The position numbers and the translations under genes were made by a program. From a virus: 21,894 bases of DNA. The stretch spans positions 1 to 21,894 of IMG/VR virus record IMGVR_UViG_3300030098_004102. One strand, 5' to 3'. Shown in pieces: positions 3,952-19,388 of this stretch; positions within the stretch are counted from its first letter, which is position 1; each line of letters opens with the position of its first letter. The notes below the pieces were generated by a model, which was not told the DNA's origin, did no database searches, and saw only the letters and a program-made list of their open reading frames with translations.

Positions 3952-4974
3952 ATGAACTACTTATTAAACAATATTAATGGATGGGTACAGTCTGGGCCTA
4001 TGGGTAATGACCTTATGGGTTATGGCGCAGTAAGTGCTGATCCACCAATTATACAATCACAGACAGTGACTGCTGGTGAGCATGGTGAAAACCTAGTTCC
4101 TGAGTTGTGGTCTGATATGATTTTTGACTATCTTCAGAAAAAGCTAGTTTTTAAGAATCTACTTCAAGATTATTCTGAGCTAGTAAGTGGAAGAGGCGAT
4201 GTTATCCATGTTCCTAAGTTAATAGCTGGAACTGGTGCACAACAAGCAGGCCTTGGTAACGCAGGTGCTGACTTTGGTGGTCAAGCAGCTAGTGCTATAC
4301 AATTTGATGGAACTAATGAGCTAGAAGCAACAATAACAATTGATCAGCATTGGTATGCTGCAAAAATGGTTACTGATGTGCTTAAAGTTCAAGCTCTTCC
4401 TGGTATGATGGAAAAGTATACAATGGGTATTGCATATGACCTTGCAAATAAAATGGATTCTTATATTGAAAGCGTTTTATCAGCAGGAGTAACAACAAAC
4501 ACAGTAACACCAACAGCAGGTGCTACAGATTTTGATGATGAGATACCTCTAGATAACTGGGCTACTTTATTTGAAAAAGTAAGAGCAGTGAATGTTGACC
4601 CTATAGCTGATGGTTGTGTTCTAGTTGTTAACTATAAGATATTTGGTGGATTTATGAATCCTGCCTCTGAAGCTGGTAAATATCTTGTTAAGGCTGACGT
4701 AACTGCTGGTGCAAATGGAATGGTTTCAGGTGTTGTGCCTACATTCTGGGGTGTTCCAGTGATTATGAGTAACAATATTGGTACAGGTGCAAGTGAAAAG
4801 GCTGCTTACTTGTTACATCCACAGTCATTTGGTTTTGCATCTTCTATAGCTCCTAGGGTAACTTCACAATATGACATTGATTATTTGTCTACTAAAGTAG
4901 TAGCAGATTCATTGTTTGGTTGTGCTGCTATCAATGAGGACTTTAGTGCTGTAATGATTAACCCTGCTAACTAA
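3952..4974 (+). CDS. Major capsid protein
   Basis: A 340-aa protein that forms the icosahedral shell. It has a short variable N-terminus, then the segment VPELWSDMIFDYLQKK (49-64), a long-helix region and the mixed Ala/Gly/Thr-rich body usual for HK97-fold coats, and a C-terminal part with SQYDIDYLSTKVVADSLFG followed by INEDFSAVMI, which matches the end of many coat proteins. It follows the scaffold directly and is followed by a strong hairpin, consistent with a highly expressed coat gene. There is no long N-terminal delta domain, which agrees with the presence of a separate scaffold gene. I cannot assign it to a specific coat subfamily (P22-like versus other HK97-fold) without a profile search. 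Confidence 0.9.
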   Translation: MNYLLNNINGWVQSGPMGNDLMGYGAVSADPPIIQSQTVTAGEHGENLVPELWSDMIFDYLQKKLVFKNLLQDYSELVSGRGDVIHVPKLIAGTGAQQAGLGNAGADFGGQAASAIQFDGTNELEATITIDQHWYAAKMVTDVLKVQALPGMMEKYTMGIAYDLANKMDSYIESVLSAGVTTNTVTPTAGATDFDDEIPLDNWATLFEKVRAVNVDPIADGCVLVVNYKIFGGFMNPASEAGKYLVKADVTAGANGMVSGVVPTFWGVPVIMSNNIGTGASEKAAYLLHPQSFGFASSIAPRVTSQYDIDYLSTKVVADSLFGCAAINEDFSAVMINPAN

Positions 4975-12178: not shown

Positions 12179-13417
12179 ATGGCAGTATCAACAACTTATT
12201 GTACGAATACAGATATATTGGATGTATATCCTAATATAGATGAGTTTGATAGTAAAACACCTTTATTTGGATGGACAACAGAAACTTTTACTAAGGCAGA
12301 TGCAAGTACAGATACTTTTTATGTTATTTACAACTCAGGCTTTATACCATCTTTATTTATAGATAGCAAAGAACAAGTGTCAGGGAAATTGACAATTGGG
12401 ACAACAAAAATTGGTGACACAGCTGAGGCTGTTGATAATAGTGAAACAGTTATAGATATTACAGGTACTCTTAGCGACTTTTCAGCAGGGTCATTTATTA
12501 AAATAAATAGTGAAATTATGTATGTGACAACAGTTACAGATGCATCTACTGATACTCTTACTGTTATAAGAGGTTGCTTGGGTACTCACAAAGAAACACA
12601 TGATAGTGGAGCAGATATATTTCAACATTTCAAACCAAGTACAAATGGTCAATTTTTATATGACTCAGATAATGATTTTTTAATATTAAAGTATGGCTCA
12701 GACCCAGTCAATTCAAATGTAGAATCAGGAACTAATTTCAACACATTGACTACTAGGATTAGAAAAAATGCATCTAGATATTTTGATTCGAGAGTTGATG
12801 CTAACTTACCAAGAGACCAATGGAAAGATAAAGAAGGTAATTATGACTACATAGTAGTCAGAACAACTGCGCTTATATCAGCATACTTTTTAATCAACGC
12901 CAGACAGCCAGGCAGTGAGTTAGCATTACAATTTATGGATGAGATAAACTTTAACCTTGATCAGTTAAATTCAGGTAAAGTAAAATTAGGATACCAAGTA
13001 TCTAGTGATTCATCTAGTGGTATATTAAGAGAAGTTGTCTCCCCTCAACGAGCAAACCCATTACATATTGTTGATACTAGGGGAAATTATAATGGCTCTT
13101 ATGACCTTTTCAAAATAGTGATTACAACCGCAGGGGTACTTGGTACTGCAAAATTCTCAGTCTATGCAAAAGGTGCAGATAATTTAAAAACAAATCAAGT
13201 CGTCACAGATAAGATTATAAATGGTCAATATCAATCTATTGGTAGTGGACTAGAAATAAGATTCCAAGGTCAAGATTCTAGTAGCGCAGCTACAGCAGGT
13301 GGTACTCCAGATGAATGGGAATTAGAATGTTGGGGTGCCTATGAATCATTTGATGGTTCTCCAGGCAACGCAGGAAATACTAGAATGACTAGAAAAAGTA
13401 GCATAAGAAGATATTAA
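12179..13417 (+). CDS. Head-tail connector protein with insertion domain
   Basis: A 412-aa protein. The ends of a small gp36/DUF1320-like head-tail connector domain appear to be split: TTYCTNTDILDVYP (5-18) at the N-terminus and, after a long insertion, ASRYFDSRVDANLP (198-211) and a helical part with RTTALISAYFLINAR and LDQLNSGKVKLGYQ (228-273). The insertion carries a beta module, AGSFIKINSEIMYVTTV then LTVIRGCLGTHKETHDSGADI (103-147). A C-terminal beta domain (about 275-400) follows, ending in a basic RMTRKSSIRRY tail. Connectors of this type dock under the portal and close the head for tail joining. SD AAGGAG precedes ATG 12179. Position next to a tail-terminator-like gene supports the assignment. 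Confidence 0.65.
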   Translation: MAVSTTYCTNTDILDVYPNIDEFDSKTPLFGWTTETFTKADASTDTFYVIYNSGFIPSLFIDSKEQVSGKLTIGTTKIGDTAEAVDNSETVIDITGTLSDFSAGSFIKINSEIMYVTTVTDASTDTLTVIRGCLGTHKETHDSGADIFQHFKPSTNGQFLYDSDNDFLILKYGSDPVNSNVESGTNFNTLTTRIRKNASRYFDSRVDANLPRDQWKDKEGNYDYIVVRTTALISAYFLINARQPGSELALQFMDEINFNLDQLNSGKVKLGYQVSSDSSSGILREVVSPQRANPLHIVDTRGNYNGSYDLFKIVITTAGVLGTAKFSVYAKGADNLKTNQVVTDKIINGQYQSIGSGLEIRFQGQDSSSAATAGGTPDEWELECWGAYESFDGSPGNAGNTRMTRKSSIRRY

Positions 13418-13924: not shown

Positions 13925-14149
13925 ATGGCTAAGTATAAGCTAAAAGAAGGTAAATCTCTAGATAATTTCCCTAATAATGGAAAGATAGGAAGGACTATTA
14001 GGATTGCACTAACTAATAATGGTTCTTATGAAGATTTCCCTGGAGCGCAGGAAATACCTAGTGATTGCCTCTCTTTTTTAACAGAAGAGACAGGTGTTAG
14101 TAAAGTTGCTACACCAAAGAATAAAGAAAAAAGTAAGGGAGGTAAGTAA
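13925..14149 (+). CDS. Small basic-tailed protein of unknown function
   Basis: A 74-aa protein with AGGAGG (13911-13916) eight bases before ATG 13925. The body contains NNGKIGRTIRIALTNNG and EIPSDCLSFLTEETG; the end is lysine-rich (TPKNKEKSKGGK). No family is recognised. It directly precedes the tail tube gene in a TAATG overlap, so it may be co-produced with it. The gap before it (13876-13924) contains a run of eight T but no stable hairpin. Confidence 0.7.
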   Translation: MAKYKLKEGKSLDNFPNNGKIGRTIRIALTNNGSYEDFPGAQEIPSDCLSFLTEETGVSKVATPKNKEKSKGGK

Positions 14150-15183
14150 TGGCTACAGATACAAAATTTTGGTCATCAAATGAGCTAGAAGTTGGAGTCG
14201 CAGTAGATGCTACTAATGTAGGTACAGCAGCTTCATCATTCACAGCTATCGAGACAGAATCAGTTACGTTTCCAACTCTTGGAGACTATAGGGTAGAACG
14301 TAGAGGTGGAGCTACATCTGGTAGATTCGTTTCAGAAGGAGACTTATTTGTATATGAGCCTGGTTCTATACACGAAATATCAGTTTCTGGATTTATGACA
14401 GAGGAACTACAATTACTATTGATGCCTAATGTTACTGGAGTTGCAATGACAGGTGACCCAGACACAATTACTATTGCAAAGGAAACTACTGGCCCAGCTA
14501 ATCTTACATTTGTTCAACATGCTAGTGCTGCTAATCATTTAACTGTATCTTTTGCATTCAATGGTGTGGGAGAAACTGGATTTGCTGATTCTATTATATT
14601 ACCAGGGTGTGTTATAACATCTCTAACTCTATCTTGGGATGCAAATGAAGATGGTGGTAGATTAAAATTCGACTTAACTGCACAAACTAGAGTACCAACT
14701 GCTAGTTATGCTACAGCTGGAACCATAGGTGCATATTCTACAAATTATTGCTATGGAACAAGTTATAATTCTGCATGGAAACTTTTTGATGTTGAATGTT
14801 TTTATAAGAGTTGGGCACTAACTATAGATAATCCTGTTACATTTTTAGGAGGTTCAGATGCTACTGCTACTAGTGTTGCAGGAGAGCCACAAACATATGT
14901 AAGGTCAATTCCAGAAATGGGAATTACTTTTGCAAGTGTGGTAAAGTATGACACTGGTCTTGATGGCCTATGGGCAGATTCTAGAAATACTGGCGCAGAT
15001 GCTACTAATGATAGCACTAATGCTGTATTTATAGACTCTTCTGACGATTCTAAGCAGATACATATAGAAAAGGCTAGTATTGAAGAGATAGGATGGGATG
15101 AAGGAGACTTCTTAGGATTAAGTACCACACTAAAGGCTAGAAACCATGGTGGAACTAACATATTTAAATATGTTTGGGGTTAA
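14149..15183 (+). CDS. Major tail tube protein
   Basis: A 344-aa beta-rich protein that probably forms the hexameric rings of the tail tube. It starts MATDTKFWSSNELEVGVAV, includes TAIETESVTFPTLGDYRVE, a membrane-free Thr/Gly-rich body with ITSLTLSWDANEDGG, and ends with a long strand KARNHGG ... FKYVWG. The N-terminal target-like strand, the internal ITSLTLSWD strand and the position one gene before the tail chaperone and tape measure are those of a tube protein. At 344 aa it is longer than minimal tube proteins, leaving room for an extra surface domain (about 210-290). No second tail protein gene of sheath type follows, so a non-contractile tail is inferred. Confidence 0.75.
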   Translation: MATDTKFWSSNELEVGVAVDATNVGTAASSFTAIETESVTFPTLGDYRVERRGGATSGRFVSEGDLFVYEPGSIHEISVSGFMTEELQLLLMPNVTGVAMTGDPDTITIAKETTGPANLTFVQHASAANHLTVSFAFNGVGETGFADSIILPGCVITSLTLSWDANEDGGRLKFDLTAQTRVPTASYATAGTIGAYSTNYCYGTSYNSAWKLFDVECFYKSWALTIDNPVTFLGGSDATATSVAGEPQTYVRSIPEMGITFASVVKYDTGLDGLWADSRNTGADATNDSTNAVFIDSSDDSKQIHIEKASIEEIGWDEGDFLGLSTTLKARNHGGTNIFKYVWG

Positions 15184-15205: not shown

Positions 15206-15553
15206 ATGAGTGATAAAAAAATCGTTAAGTTACCTAGAGGTACTGTAGAGTTATCCACAGGTAAGAAGGTAAATTTGAAAGATATGTCAATAGATGAGAT
15301 AGATGAATGTAGTGATATAACTACAATACATCAAGATGGTGCAGGGGGAACTTATTTTTCTGGATTATCCAAGTCTAGGACAGCTTGGTTAAGAAGAGGA
15401 ATAAAAGGAGGTGACTTTGTTAATTTCAAGACAGCTCCTAATGGATTCGTTGACGACTCAGTTCTAAAGCAGTTAAGTGAGATTGAAAAGAATGAATTGG
15501 TTCAGTTGATTCAGGAGTATCAATCTATGGGGGAAGAGAATCCCTCACACTAG
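15206..15553 (+). CDS. Tail assembly chaperone, short form (lambda G-like)
   Basis: A 115-aa protein translated without frameshifting. It has a beta-type N-terminus (KKIVKLPRGTVELSTGKKV), a middle with SRTAWLRRGIKGGDF, and a C-terminal helix (SVLKQLSEIEKNELVQLIQE) ending GEENPSH. Position between tail tube and tape measure genes and an open -1 frame continuing after its end are the hallmarks of the G component of the G/GT chaperone system, which holds the tape measure protein while the tube polymerises. AGGAGA (15196-15201) precedes ATG 15206. Confidence 0.8.
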   Translation: MSDKKIVKLPRGTVELSTGKKVNLKDMSIDEIDECSDITTIHQDGAGGTYFSGLSKSRTAWLRRGIKGGDFVNFKTAPNGFVDDSVLKQLSEIEKNELVQLIQEYQSMGEENPSH

Positions 15554-15987
15554 CATTTTCTCTATTATTAGGCGATAGGTGTAGAGGGTGTCCATATTGT
15601 AATTTTCCTTACGAGGCTACAATACCCATAAAGAGCTCATTAGGTTCTTTTGAAAAAAAGATTTTTAATGACATTGAAGATGTATGGGATGTTATCTGGT
15701 TACTAAAGGAAGACACGATAAATAACTCTAATGGGGCAGAGAGTGTTAACGTAGAAGGATCAGTTAGTACTCAATTGCCCTTTTTTTGTTGTCCTAATAA
15801 CGTTACAGATGAGTCTAATACTTCAATTGTAAATAAGTACTTTTACTGCAAGGAGATGAATACTCCACCATTTAGAGGTTCTTATGAAGACACACCTGTA
15901 AGATGGATAAAGCAAGTGTCCATTATAAAGAATTGCAAAACAATACTACAGAATAGAGCTAAGAAGAACGCTGAAAAGAAAGGATAA
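15206..15987 (+). CDS. Tail assembly chaperone, -1 frameshift fusion (GT-like)
   Basis: The -1 frame relative to the short chaperone is open from 15493 to the stop at 15985-15987, well past the short form's TAG at 15551-15553. It has no ATG before 15853 and no SD-preceded start, so it is most likely reached by frameshifting. If the slip occurs at the five G (15529-15533), residues 1-109 of the short form are joined to 151 aa, giving 260 aa. The extension starts GRESLTLAFSLLLGD and contains seven Cys: C126, C129, C132 (C-x2-C-x2-C), C195-C196, C215 and C244, suggesting a metal site. The C-terminus is basic (RAKKNAEKKG). In known systems the T part binds the tape measure protein, whose gene starts 2 nt downstream. 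Confidence 0.8.
15529..15535 (+). other. Probable -1 ribosomal frameshift site GGGGGAA
   Basis: In the zero frame the codons read ATG GGG GAA GAG. A one-base backward slip lets the Gly tRNA re-pair perfectly with GGG; the A-site Glu tRNA would be mismatched at one position, so the site is not a perfect X-XXY-YYZ heptamer. It lies inside the window 15493-15553 in which both frames are open, about six codons before the zero-frame stop. A weak stem, CTCTA (15560-15564) with TAGAG (15582-15586), lies downstream. Confidence 0.7.
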
Positions 15988-15989
15988 GT

Positions 15990-18900
15990 ATGGCTAAAAA
16001 GATAGATGTAAGTAAGGAAGCTGCTAGATTAACCAAGCAAATAATAAAGCAGACCCAAGCCACTCAAAAGAATACTAAGGCTAGGACTACTAACACTAAA
16101 GCCAATCATAATGCTGCTCCTGGCTTAGACCAATTAAGTGCTGCTCTATTTGCACAAACTACAAGAATAAATCAACTAACAAAAGCATTAGAGAAAAATA
16201 ATAGAGCTCGTAGACGTAATACAAGAGAAGGCGTTCTTGGTTTTGAACATAATAGGCTTCTAACTGGATCGTTTGCTGTTCTTCGTTCCAAACTATTATT
16301 GGTTGCCTTTGGTTATGCTATGGTCAGTAAGACTGTGGGTGTTTTACTAAAACAAAATTCTGACTTCCAAGCATCTGTTGATAGAATAAACTCAGGATTG
16401 GAAAGCACAGGTAGATTTACGATAGCAACATCTAGGCAAATGATGGAATTGTCAGATGAAATGGAGATTTTGACTGGAGTAGCAGGAACTCAGGTAAATG
16501 AAGTTATTGGTCTAGGATTAACTTTTACTAATATATCTACAAGTACTATGCCTGCGTTTACTAAAGCAGCCTTAGATATGACTGCTGGTATGAATGCAGG
16601 AAAGATAACTGCTGAGGGATTAAAGTCAAGCTCAATCATATTAGGTAAAGCCCTAAATGACCCAATTACAGGTCTCTCTGCATTATCAAGAGTTGGTGTC
16701 CAATTTAGTGATGCACAGAAAAATCTAATTCAAACCTCTATTGCATTTGGAGATACTCTAACAGCACAACAAATTATATTAAAAGAAGTAGATAAACAAT
16801 TTAAAGGTAAGGCATCTTTAGACAATTACGAAAAAACCATGAGAGACCTAGATACTGCTATTGGGAATCTGCAAAGAGCAATAGGTAAAGATTTAGCACC
16901 AGTCGTAGAGTCACTTGCAAAATCATTAAAAGTAGTCGTTGAGCAAACTGACACTAGAAGTATTGCAGAATTTGCTGGAGTTTTCACTGGATTATCAGCA
17001 ACATTATTAATTGCTAGAAAAAGTTTAACAAGTTTCTTAGCATCTCAATTAGGTTTAAGCCTAAGCACAAAAACTCTTTGGGAAAGAACTCAAAAATACC
17101 TATTCACAGTTAAAGATGGTCAAAAAGTAGTAGTTGCGCAGACAAATAGAATGAGAGCTCTTATGGTATTAACTAGAATACTTTCTAAAAGCCTAGGTGT
17201 TCTCACTCTTGCATTTGGAGGAACCATGCTTTGGTTCTCTAAAGCAAAAAAGAGCACCAAAGAATTAAATGATGAAACATTAAATTACATAGATACTCTT
17301 AATAGAGTTCAATCCCCAACTGCTCCAACAGGGGAGGCTACAGAAGTATCATTGACTGGAGATGCATTATATAGGCAAAAAGTTGATCAGTTAAGTAGTA
17401 GTATAGAGGGTCAAGAATCTTCATTGAAATTATTAAATGAAAGAGTTAATGCTACTAAAGATGCTATATCTGGAGCAACCACTGGAACCAATGAGTATAC
17501 TGAAGAGTTAGAATTATTAAAGTCTGTACTTTCTAAAATTTATCCAAAACAAGAAGCATTCTCTGACGCAGCAATTGATGTAAATAAATTACCAAGTCAA
17601 GTTTCAGATGCATTGCAAACCATAGAATCTAAAGTAAAAGCATTTAGAAATAAATCTAAGCAATACAATCTAAGCTCTTCTATAATGGATGATGAGGAAT
17701 TTTCAAAGGCAATAAATGTTGTAACATCTGAATTAGACAAGTTATCTGGCTTAGGTGTTGGTAGCTCAGGCATTCTAGAATTTTTTGGTCAATGGGTAGG
17801 AGCAGGAGAAGATGCATCTTCAATGCTATTAGATACTAGAGGCAATGTTATAAGTAATCAAATAGCAGTAAAAAGATTAAGTGATGCATTAAGCTCAGTA
17901 TCTAAAGAACTAAAGGCACAAAAGGATAATTTAGATGTAAATAATAAATCTTATAGTGAGTTAAAGAAAGTTATAGAGGATAAAGAATCTTCAATATCTT
18001 CACTTAAAGATCAGCTAAAAGAATATCAAGTAAAATTAGGTATAGTAGTTGAAGAGACAGAAGACTCAACAACTGCTACAATTGATTTTGATAGTGCTAT
18101 TAAGGGTACAATGCATACTATGGACATAGCATCTAGCCAAGGTATGGTTGCTTATATAGAAAAGCTAAAGCAAATTAATAGTACTCATGAGCATTCAAGT
18201 AAAACTTTAGATGATCAGTTAATTCCATTACTACTTAAGTATAAACTTACTAATGATGCTATTACAGGTAAGCCATTAATTGACAACGATGGTCTATATG
18301 ATACAGTTGCTATATTAAAGCAATTTAGGGACTATGCAACCTTAGATGATAAAGATATTCAAGCTATAAATCAATATGCTAAGGAATGGGAATTATCTGC
18401 TGATGAGATAAAGAAAGCAGTTTTGGCTGGACAGCAAGTAAATATAATCCAGGCTGAGCTTAAAAAAGATGCTACTGATGAGCAGATTCAAACTTGGGCG
18501 AATAGATTTGGTGAAGATGTTGATGAGTTGAGGGAAAAATTACAAGCTAGTGAATTTGGATTAGTTGCTCCTGGTGGAGAAGATACACAACTAATAGTTA
18601 CTTATAATAGTCATTTTGCAGAACTTCTAAAAATGTTTGAACTATTCCAAAAGAATAAACCTTGGTCAATATTCGATAAGATTAGCGATGCTATGGGATT
18701 TAACGTTAGCCATTTAAAAGAAGTTCTAGATGCAGTATTTGATGTAGCTAATGCTTATACTAAACTTGTTGACTCACAAGTCCAAGTAGAGAGACAAACA
18801 ATTCAAACTCAATATGCTCAAAAACAAGCTGTTGTATCAGAGATAAGAAATCAGACTGTTAGAGCTTTATATGAGAAGAAACTTCAAGACCAAAAAGATA

Positions 18901-19388
18901 AAGATGAAAGAGAATTATTTAAAAAGCATAAGAAAAACCAAATAGCAATGGCTTGGATAGCAGGAGCTCAAGGAATCCTAAACGTTCTAATGGAACCAGC
19001 TCCAAAAGGAATGACTTTCCCTGTGGCTTCTGTTATAAGAGGTCTGCAAATAGCTGCTATAGGGGCTACGACAAAAGCACAAGTTGATACGATTAAATCT
19101 CAAGAGACATTTGCTACAGGTGGATATGTTTCAGGGCCATCACACAATATGGGTGGAGTACAAGCTGAACTTGAGGGTGGAGAGTTTGTTATGAGAAAGT
19201 CAGCTGTGGATAGATATGGAATAGATTTCATGAAAGATATAAATCAAGGTTCTACTTCTCCTGGAAATCAAATAGTAGTTAATGTTACATTTACAGGTAA
19301 TGTAAATTCTGATCAATTTATTGAAGATGAAGTTATACCTCAAATACAAAGTGCTATACAAAGAGGAGTTAATTTAGGAGATGCATAG
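15990..19388 (+). CDS. Tail tape measure protein
   Basis: At 1132 aa this is the longest complete gene in the window. The N-terminal 80 residues are basic and Thr/Asn/Lys-rich. A hydrophobic segment lies at about 94-119 and another at about 402-417. The region at about 215-247 (GKALNDPITGLSALSRVGVQFS) is a signature of tape measure proteins. Long coiled-coil-prone helices fill about 450-960. The C-terminus has a hydrophobic helix pair (about 984-1033) and then FATGGYVSGPSHNMGG and EGGEFVMRKSAVDRYG, also a family signature. The protein sets tail length and enters the host envelope during DNA delivery. By the usual 0.15 nm per residue it predicts a tail of about 170 nm. AAAGGA precedes ATG 15990, and the chaperone gene lies immediately upstream. 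Confidence 0.95.
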   Translation: MAKKIDVSKEAARLTKQIIKQTQATQKNTKARTTNTKANHNAAPGLDQLSAALFAQTTRINQLTKALEKNNRARRRNTREGVLGFEHNRLLTGSFAVLRSKLLLVAFGYAMVSKTVGVLLKQNSDFQASVDRINSGLESTGRFTIATSRQMMELSDEMEILTGVAGTQVNEVIGLGLTFTNISTSTMPAFTKAALDMTAGMNAGKITAEGLKSSSIILGKALNDPITGLSALSRVGVQFSDAQKNLIQTSIAFGDTLTAQQIILKEVDKQFKGKASLDNYEKTMRDLDTAIGNLQRAIGKDLAPVVESLAKSLKVVVEQTDTRSIAEFAGVFTGLSATLLIARKSLTSFLASQLGLSLSTKTLWERTQKYLFTVKDGQKVVVAQTNRMRALMVLTRILSKSLGVLTLAFGGTMLWFSKAKKSTKELNDETLNYIDTLNRVQSPTAPTGEATEVSLTGDALYRQKVDQLSSSIEGQESSLKLLNERVNATKDAISGATTGTNEYTEELELLKSVLSKIYPKQEAFSDAAIDVNKLPSQVSDALQTIESKVKAFRNKSKQYNLSSSIMDDEEFSKAINVVTSELDKLSGLGVGSSGILEFFGQWVGAGEDASSMLLDTRGNVISNQIAVKRLSDALSSVSKELKAQKDNLDVNNKSYSELKKVIEDKESSISSLKDQLKEYQVKLGIVVEETEDSTTATIDFDSAIKGTMHTMDIASSQGMVAYIEKLKQINSTHEHSSKTLDDQLIPLLLKYKLTNDAITGKPLIDNDGLYDTVAILKQFRDYATLDDKDIQAINQYAKEWELSADEIKKAVLAGQQVNIIQAELKKDATDEQIQTWANRFGEDVDELREKLQASEFGLVAPGGEDTQLIVTYNSHFAELLKMFELFQKNKPWSIFDKISDAMGFNVSHLKEVLDAVFDVANAYTKLVDSQVQVERQTIQTQYAQKQAVVSEIRNQTVRALYEKKLQDQKDKDERELFKKHKKNQIAMAWIAGAQGILNVLMEPAPKGMTFPVASVIRGLQIAAIGATTKAQVDTIKSQETFATGGYVSGPSHNMGGVQAELEGGEFVMRKSAVDRYGIDFMKDINQGSTSPGNQIVVNVTFTGNVNSDQFIEDEVIPQIQSAIQRGVNLGDA

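Follow-up and report, generated by a model that had tools for sequence, protein, structure and literature searches.

The 21,894-nt stretch of viral DNA analysed here (IMG/VR record IMGVR_UViG_3300030098_004102, positions 1 to 21,894; referred to as the window) comes from a phage known from environmental DNA alone, and it very likely encodes a G/GT-type tail chaperone pair, in which a hairpin-aided -1 slip would produce a GT protein of about 260 aa whose T domain would have a metal site, most likely for zinc. Tail assembly chaperones govern how phage tails attain their right length, and T domains are poorly understood and difficult to recognise. The frameshift itself is of the known G/GT kind. 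The predicted metal-binding T domain appears to be new; no metal-binding tail chaperone was described in the titles and abstracts covered by our literature search, which reached few subscription papers.

Locus layout and slip site

As in the lambda gpG/gpGT system, the tape measure gene is directly preceded by two overlapping ORFs (table 1), and the predicted -1 slip falls close to where the short one ends. The -1 frame is limited upstream by a TGA (15493-15495) and overlaps the end of the short chaperone ORF around the slip site; the functional part of the -1 frame is the 152 residues from the slip site (15529) onward. A preliminary description, made from the sequence alone, had reported a frame of 165 codons from 15493 to 15987. 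This frame is indeed open, but the start was placed one codon early and the count included both stop codons, the true number being 163. The overlap that had been placed at GGGGGAA was borne out, in the 0-frame register G GGG GAA. We also agree that the -1 frame has no credible start, as no ATG, GTG or TTG occurs in the window's frame ahead of the TTG at 15775, and that simple ORF calling yields merely a 70-aa stub of the extension.

Table 1. Coordinates of the features of the chaperone locus in the window
Feature	Position	Strand	Remarks
Major tail protein candidate	14149-15183	+	344-aa ORF upstream of the chaperone; assigned by position only
G-like short tail chaperone ORF, 0 frame	15206-15553	+	115 aa; 115 codons 15206-15550, ATG start, TAG 15551-15553
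T-like extension, -1 frame	15496-15987	+	163 sense codons 15496-15984, TAA 15985-15987
Shine-Dalgarno-like AGGAG	15513-15517	+	11 nt 5' of slip site; possible stimulator
Slippery heptamer G GGG GAA	15529-15535	+	In register; known motif (PMC10274946)
Stem-loop	15542-15588	+	6 nt 3' of slip site; CCCTCACAC (15542-15550) with GTGT-A-GAGGG (15579-15588), one bulged A
C-x2-C-x2-C knuckle	15580-15600	+	C126 15580-15582, C129 15589-15591, C132 15598-15600
C196, fourth predicted ligand	15790-15792	+	QLPFFxC motif; Cys in 129/129
C215, frequent, dispensable Cys	15847-15849	+	C 109, A 12, S 7, T 1 (n=129)
Tape measure protein gene	15990-19388	+	1132 aa; directly downstream of -1 frame; PHROG 27166, E 2.5e-13

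The gene at 15990 gave tblastn matches to annotated tape measure proteins, and most relatives have a long ORF at the same position. A relative of the ORF at 14149-15183 was found in 5 of 5 related contigs examined; this ORF showed no family match and no match among phages.

Successive IMG/VR scans for relatives of the extension yielded 4, 25, 285 and 335 candidate places, and the best 80 of 285 and the best 80 of 335 were taken on from the last two. Detailed comparison covered 87 loci, the window included, and then 57 further distinct sequences; 129 distinct extensions were compared in all. Conservation of the frame in relatives was a check named beforehand, and the -1 frame and slip site proved to be kept across the 87 loci, with the 0-frame ORF of the short chaperone also conserved. 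GGGGGAA was observed in frame in 78 of these loci and GGGGGAG in the other 9. The 0-frame codon ahead of the heptamer is variable (GTG, TTG, CTG, ATG, ACG or AAG), yet its last base is always G, indicating that the heptamer is conserved rather than the amino acid. One locus (L027) has a -1-frame TAA immediately 5' of GGG, and therefore the shift must take place at the heptamer itself. A 0-frame TAG is found directly 3' of the heptamer in 16 GGGGGAA loci and in most GGGGGAG loci. The most divergent relatives use other slip sites in the same place, namely A AAC CCC (L117-L119), A AAC CCG (L164) and an A-run (L185). Such replacement of the slippery sequence, with direction and place retained, argues strongly that a -1 frameshift has been selected for.

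The slip site had been regarded as imperfect and unusual, a view that did not hold. Tail-chaperone slip sites with GGGGGAA have been described: in the SEA-PHAGES data, about a thousand cases of the 'fivetwo' motif all take this form, at which, according to the authors, G:U pairing allows the second tRNA to re-pair (PMC10274946). The heptamer of the window is identical to that of these chaperone slip sites, which were analysed with PRFect (PMC10274946), a program whose training set is biased to high GC, whereas the window phage has 35% GC. Unlike the SEA-PHAGES sites, the family of the window exchanges the heptamer in its divergent members. Taken together, the conserved slip site, the two conserved frames and the downstream hairpin strongly back the G/GT-type -1 frameshift that had been suggested. 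As in lambda, the fusion would be a minority product; both the occurrence and the rate of -1 frameshifting are here predicted from sequence.

Stem-loop and Shine-Dalgarno-like element

Two elements absent from the preliminary description, a conserved stem-loop and a Shine-Dalgarno-like element, flank the heptamer. The 40 non-redundant sequences divide evenly at the first core pair of the stem, 20 having C-G and 20 having G-C. Later pairs alternate between C-G and A-U, and such switches represent compensatory change; in these pair counts the register was picked per sequence from four, which favours pairing. Using the unadjusted alignment, 0 of 500 shuffles equalled the real data in covariation score or in the percentage of pairing, and most of the signal was lost when the partner was slid by 1-3 columns. 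The stem escaped automatic consensus folding, since it occurs among the relatives in two registers that differ by one base; the named stem was recovered by counting its pairs across the alignment. The stem was present at the same place in 57 of 57 further sequences, the hairpin counts not being probabilities since relatives are not independent.

The choice of glycine codons was also analysed. The invariant Gly of C-x-G-C is encoded by GGC when the 5' arm carries G (20/20) and mostly by GGG when it carries C (14/20); GGG and GGC are rare Gly codons of the phage (27 and 36 of 329). With the -1-frame protein fixed, the natural RNA was more stable than synonymous recodings in 31 of 40 sequences (p<0.05). 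The window alone forms a hairpin with one bulge that is modestly better than shuffles (z -1.77) or recodings (p 0.14), an effect weak enough that the case rests on the family. The 3' arm (15579-15588) coincides with the codons for C-R-G that immediately precede the second Cys of the knuckle; RNA structure and predicted metal site would thus constrain the same bases.

For the Shine-Dalgarno-like element, 72 distinct relatives were compared: AGGAG at spacing 11 was found in 20, AGGA in 17, AAGAG in 9, and none of the tested motifs in 23. Its presence, in this or a weaker form, in about two thirds of the relatives suggests that it is at most auxiliary. The Gln codon at this site is CAG in 25 and CAA in 14 of the 40 sequences, compared with 29 CAG and 132 CAA in the window's genes.

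Selection, fold and predicted metal site of the extension

When the bases of 15554-15984 were shuffled 20,000 times, not one shuffle preserved an open frame. Over 144 codons of the -1 frame, differences between the window and one relative (L001) numbered 34, 30 and 69 at codon positions 1, 2 and 3, and changes among the relatives concentrate on third positions of this frame. Judged by these patterns, the extension is a real protein under purifying selection in the -1 frame. It is conserved from the slip site (GGRESL) onward, without any conserved start codon.

No credible match to the extension was detected in Pfam, NCBIfam, PHROGs or PDB; a match to NCBIfam integrase_1 (E 0.0019, 5 members) was judged to be due to chance. 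Among PHROGs, even the strongest pointer to a tail assembly chaperone was weak (phrog_9001, E 0.011, from one relative and its C-terminal part). Searching 50,697 phage records by tblastn with the extension and three diverged relatives gave nothing credible. The only matches, at E 0.04 (PhiR34_1 and two others), overlie a ybcM-type regulator gene on the opposite strand and were attributed to chance, as was an Rfam folP match (E 0.011) that is on the opposite strand and far below the gathering score. Scanning 84,980 genomes of bacteria and archaea turned up no relative of the extension. These searches suggest a family of relatives from uncultured phages, with no match found in cultured phages. 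It has been described that G-T frameshifting is conserved among phages despite low sequence similarity (PMC5009743), and a missing family match is thus not evidence against membership.

An AlphaFold2 model built from 52 sequences (pLDDT 90, pTM 0.82) predicts a helix-strand-strand arrangement followed by helices. With 25 sequences an earlier model had reached only pLDDT 66, and the PDB search made with so poor a model was uninformative. Comparison of the better model with PDB revealed no strong structural match (best Z 3.7), a result that for a predicted fold does not prove novelty. In BFVD, the predicted folds of two unnamed viral proteins match the T domain: A0A516LCZ5 (108 aa, E 1.7e-5, 32% identity) and A0A516MDN7 (89 aa, E 2.6e-4, 40% identity). 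Both are shorter than the extension and may be gene calls that captured only part of it.

In the numbering used here, a fusion residue equals the T residue + 108, and the Cys positions listed in the preliminary description are right in fusion numbering. Conservation of these residues in relatives, also a check named beforehand, gave a divided answer. C126, C129 and C196 (extension C18, C21 and C88) are invariant in all 129 distinct sequences. Residue 132 (extension 24) is H in 75, C in 42, E in 11 and D in 1, and nothing else, all four being residues able to bind metal. C215 (extension C107) is frequent and optional, and C195 and C244 (extension C87 and C136) are not conserved among the 129 sequences. 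What stands of the suggested metal-binding T domain is thus a ligand pattern of three invariant Cys and one H/C/E/D position, without C195 and C244. All four ligand-type residues are present in the extension across the 129 sequences. C126, C129, residue 132 and C196 probably constitute a four-ligand metal site for zinc, and the predicted structural site can be written as C-x2-C-x2-[C/H/E/D]-x63-C; metal binding and the kind of metal are both predicted from this pattern.

Glu at extension position 24 is accompanied by Cys at extension position 124 (fusion 232) in 11 of 11 sequences, and no other sequence has that Cys. This pairing may represent ligand rewiring, although the 11 sequences may be one lineage, which makes it only suggestive. 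The relatives concerned are L130, L133, L135, L138, L140, L151, L156, L160, L166, L170 and L172.

Proposed mechanism, alternatives and genome context

We propose that most ribosomes would make the 115-aa G protein and that a minority would slip by -1 at the heptamer, where tRNA-Gly would re-pair with GGG and tRNA-Glu with GGA, the latter with G:U as its middle pair. The slip, aided by the stem-loop 6 nt 3' of the heptamer and probably by AGGAG 11 nt 5' of it, would yield the GT fusion of about 260 aa. The T domain would be an independently folding alpha/beta domain held by a structural metal, most likely zinc, with C126, C129, residue 132 (C/H/E/D) and C196 as ligands. In the lambda scheme, many G bind the tape measure protein and few GT bring the major tail protein via T (PMC5009743). 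Position, frames and slip site of the window fit this scheme; by analogy, coating of the tape measure protein would fall to G and recruitment of the major tail protein to T. The window differs from lambda gpG/gpGT in that its T domain has no detectable relative in known families and has an invariant metal-site-like ligand set, and in having GGGGGAA with a conserved downstream hairpin.

A broader proposal, which we consider plausible but a little short of probable, is that a widespread family of uncultured phages has for its T domain a metal-dependent fold not described before, in which the metal would hold the surface that recruits the tail protein, ligands would have been exchanged in evolution (Glu132 with Cys232), and the codons of the Cys knuckle would form one arm of the hairpin. 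If true, a first structure of T with its tail protein could conveniently be sought with this T domain, which would be compact, well folding and stabilised by metal. The family, which keeps the frameshift switch while replacing the heptamer, would also be a natural test set for sufficient heptamers and hairpins.

Overlapping frames of which the second lacks a start can look the same when one gene is interrupted by a genuine indel or by a mistake in sequencing. We give such a pseudogene practically no chance: the same two-frame layout occurs in 87 loci and 57 further distinct sequences, the -1 frame is under purifying selection, and by this conservation the reading is already refuted. It is also extremely unlikely that the extension is a separate gene with its own internal start, for example at TTG 15775 or just 3' of the slip site. 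ORF callers do output such stubs, and the BFVD proteins of 108 and 89 aa, being shorter than the extension, could be stubs of this kind. However, 31 of 78 relatives, window included, have no ATG, GTG or TTG between the slip site and CxxC, a start at TTG 15775 would lose three of the four predicted ligands, and conservation is unbroken from the slip site onward; an internal start would also leave the conserved heptamer and hairpin unexplained. If the frameshift is real, the Cys residues might still form disulfides, a redox centre, an Fe-S cluster or a site for another metal instead of structural zinc, which we consider rather unlikely. Metal identity cannot be read from sequence, and most members retain the optional fifth Cys, C215. 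On the other hand, the exchange of C, H, E and D at residue 132 fits a metal ligand and not a disulfide, and His, Glu and Asp are less usual at Fe-S clusters. A tail chaperone is expected to work in the reducing cytoplasm, which also counts against this reading.

Another possible origin of the extension is the T4 hub-assembly chaperones gp26 and gp51 (Pfam T4_baseplate, PF12322), of which it might be a diverged relative. Like the predicted GT protein, these are tail assembly chaperones and CxxC carriers. The hub assembly chaperone gp51 is not part of the finished particle (PMC3004832); its gene lies near the T4 tape measure gene, and its CxxC is followed further along by another conserved Cys. 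C85, C88 and C185 of gp51 are invariant in seven T4-like sequences, and a weak zinc-finger-like Pfam match covers its CxxC (E 0.12). Such a relationship is nonetheless very unlikely. Profile-profile comparison by hhalign gave a probability of 2.5% over 14 columns, with the Cys not among them, and hmmsearch of T4 gp26/gp51 scored below zero, so that membership of PF12322 gained no support. The window and four relatives showed no T4_baseplate match in Pfam, and gp26/gp51 are not named among the structural matches listed. Unlike the window's chaperones, gp51 and gp26 are separate ordinary genes without a frameshift, and no homology is detectable. T4 gene 51 corresponds to positions 3480-4229 of L101, and whether gp51 has a metal site merits a test.

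Several other genes of the window could be assigned. Positions 1-1257 encode a terminase large subunit that tblastn matched to many phages, with Arthrobacter phage Wollypog as the best match (35% identity), and a portal candidate follows the terminase at 1257-2582 (PHROG 145, E 3.5e-4). The major capsid protein candidate at 3952-4974 shows 28% identity to mycobacteriophage capsids such as that of Rita (E 2e-13), despite the 35% GC of the window. Upstream of the chaperone, 12179-13417 encodes a 412-aa protein, residues 71-148 of which match tail protein profiles (PHROG 1101, E 1.4e-9).
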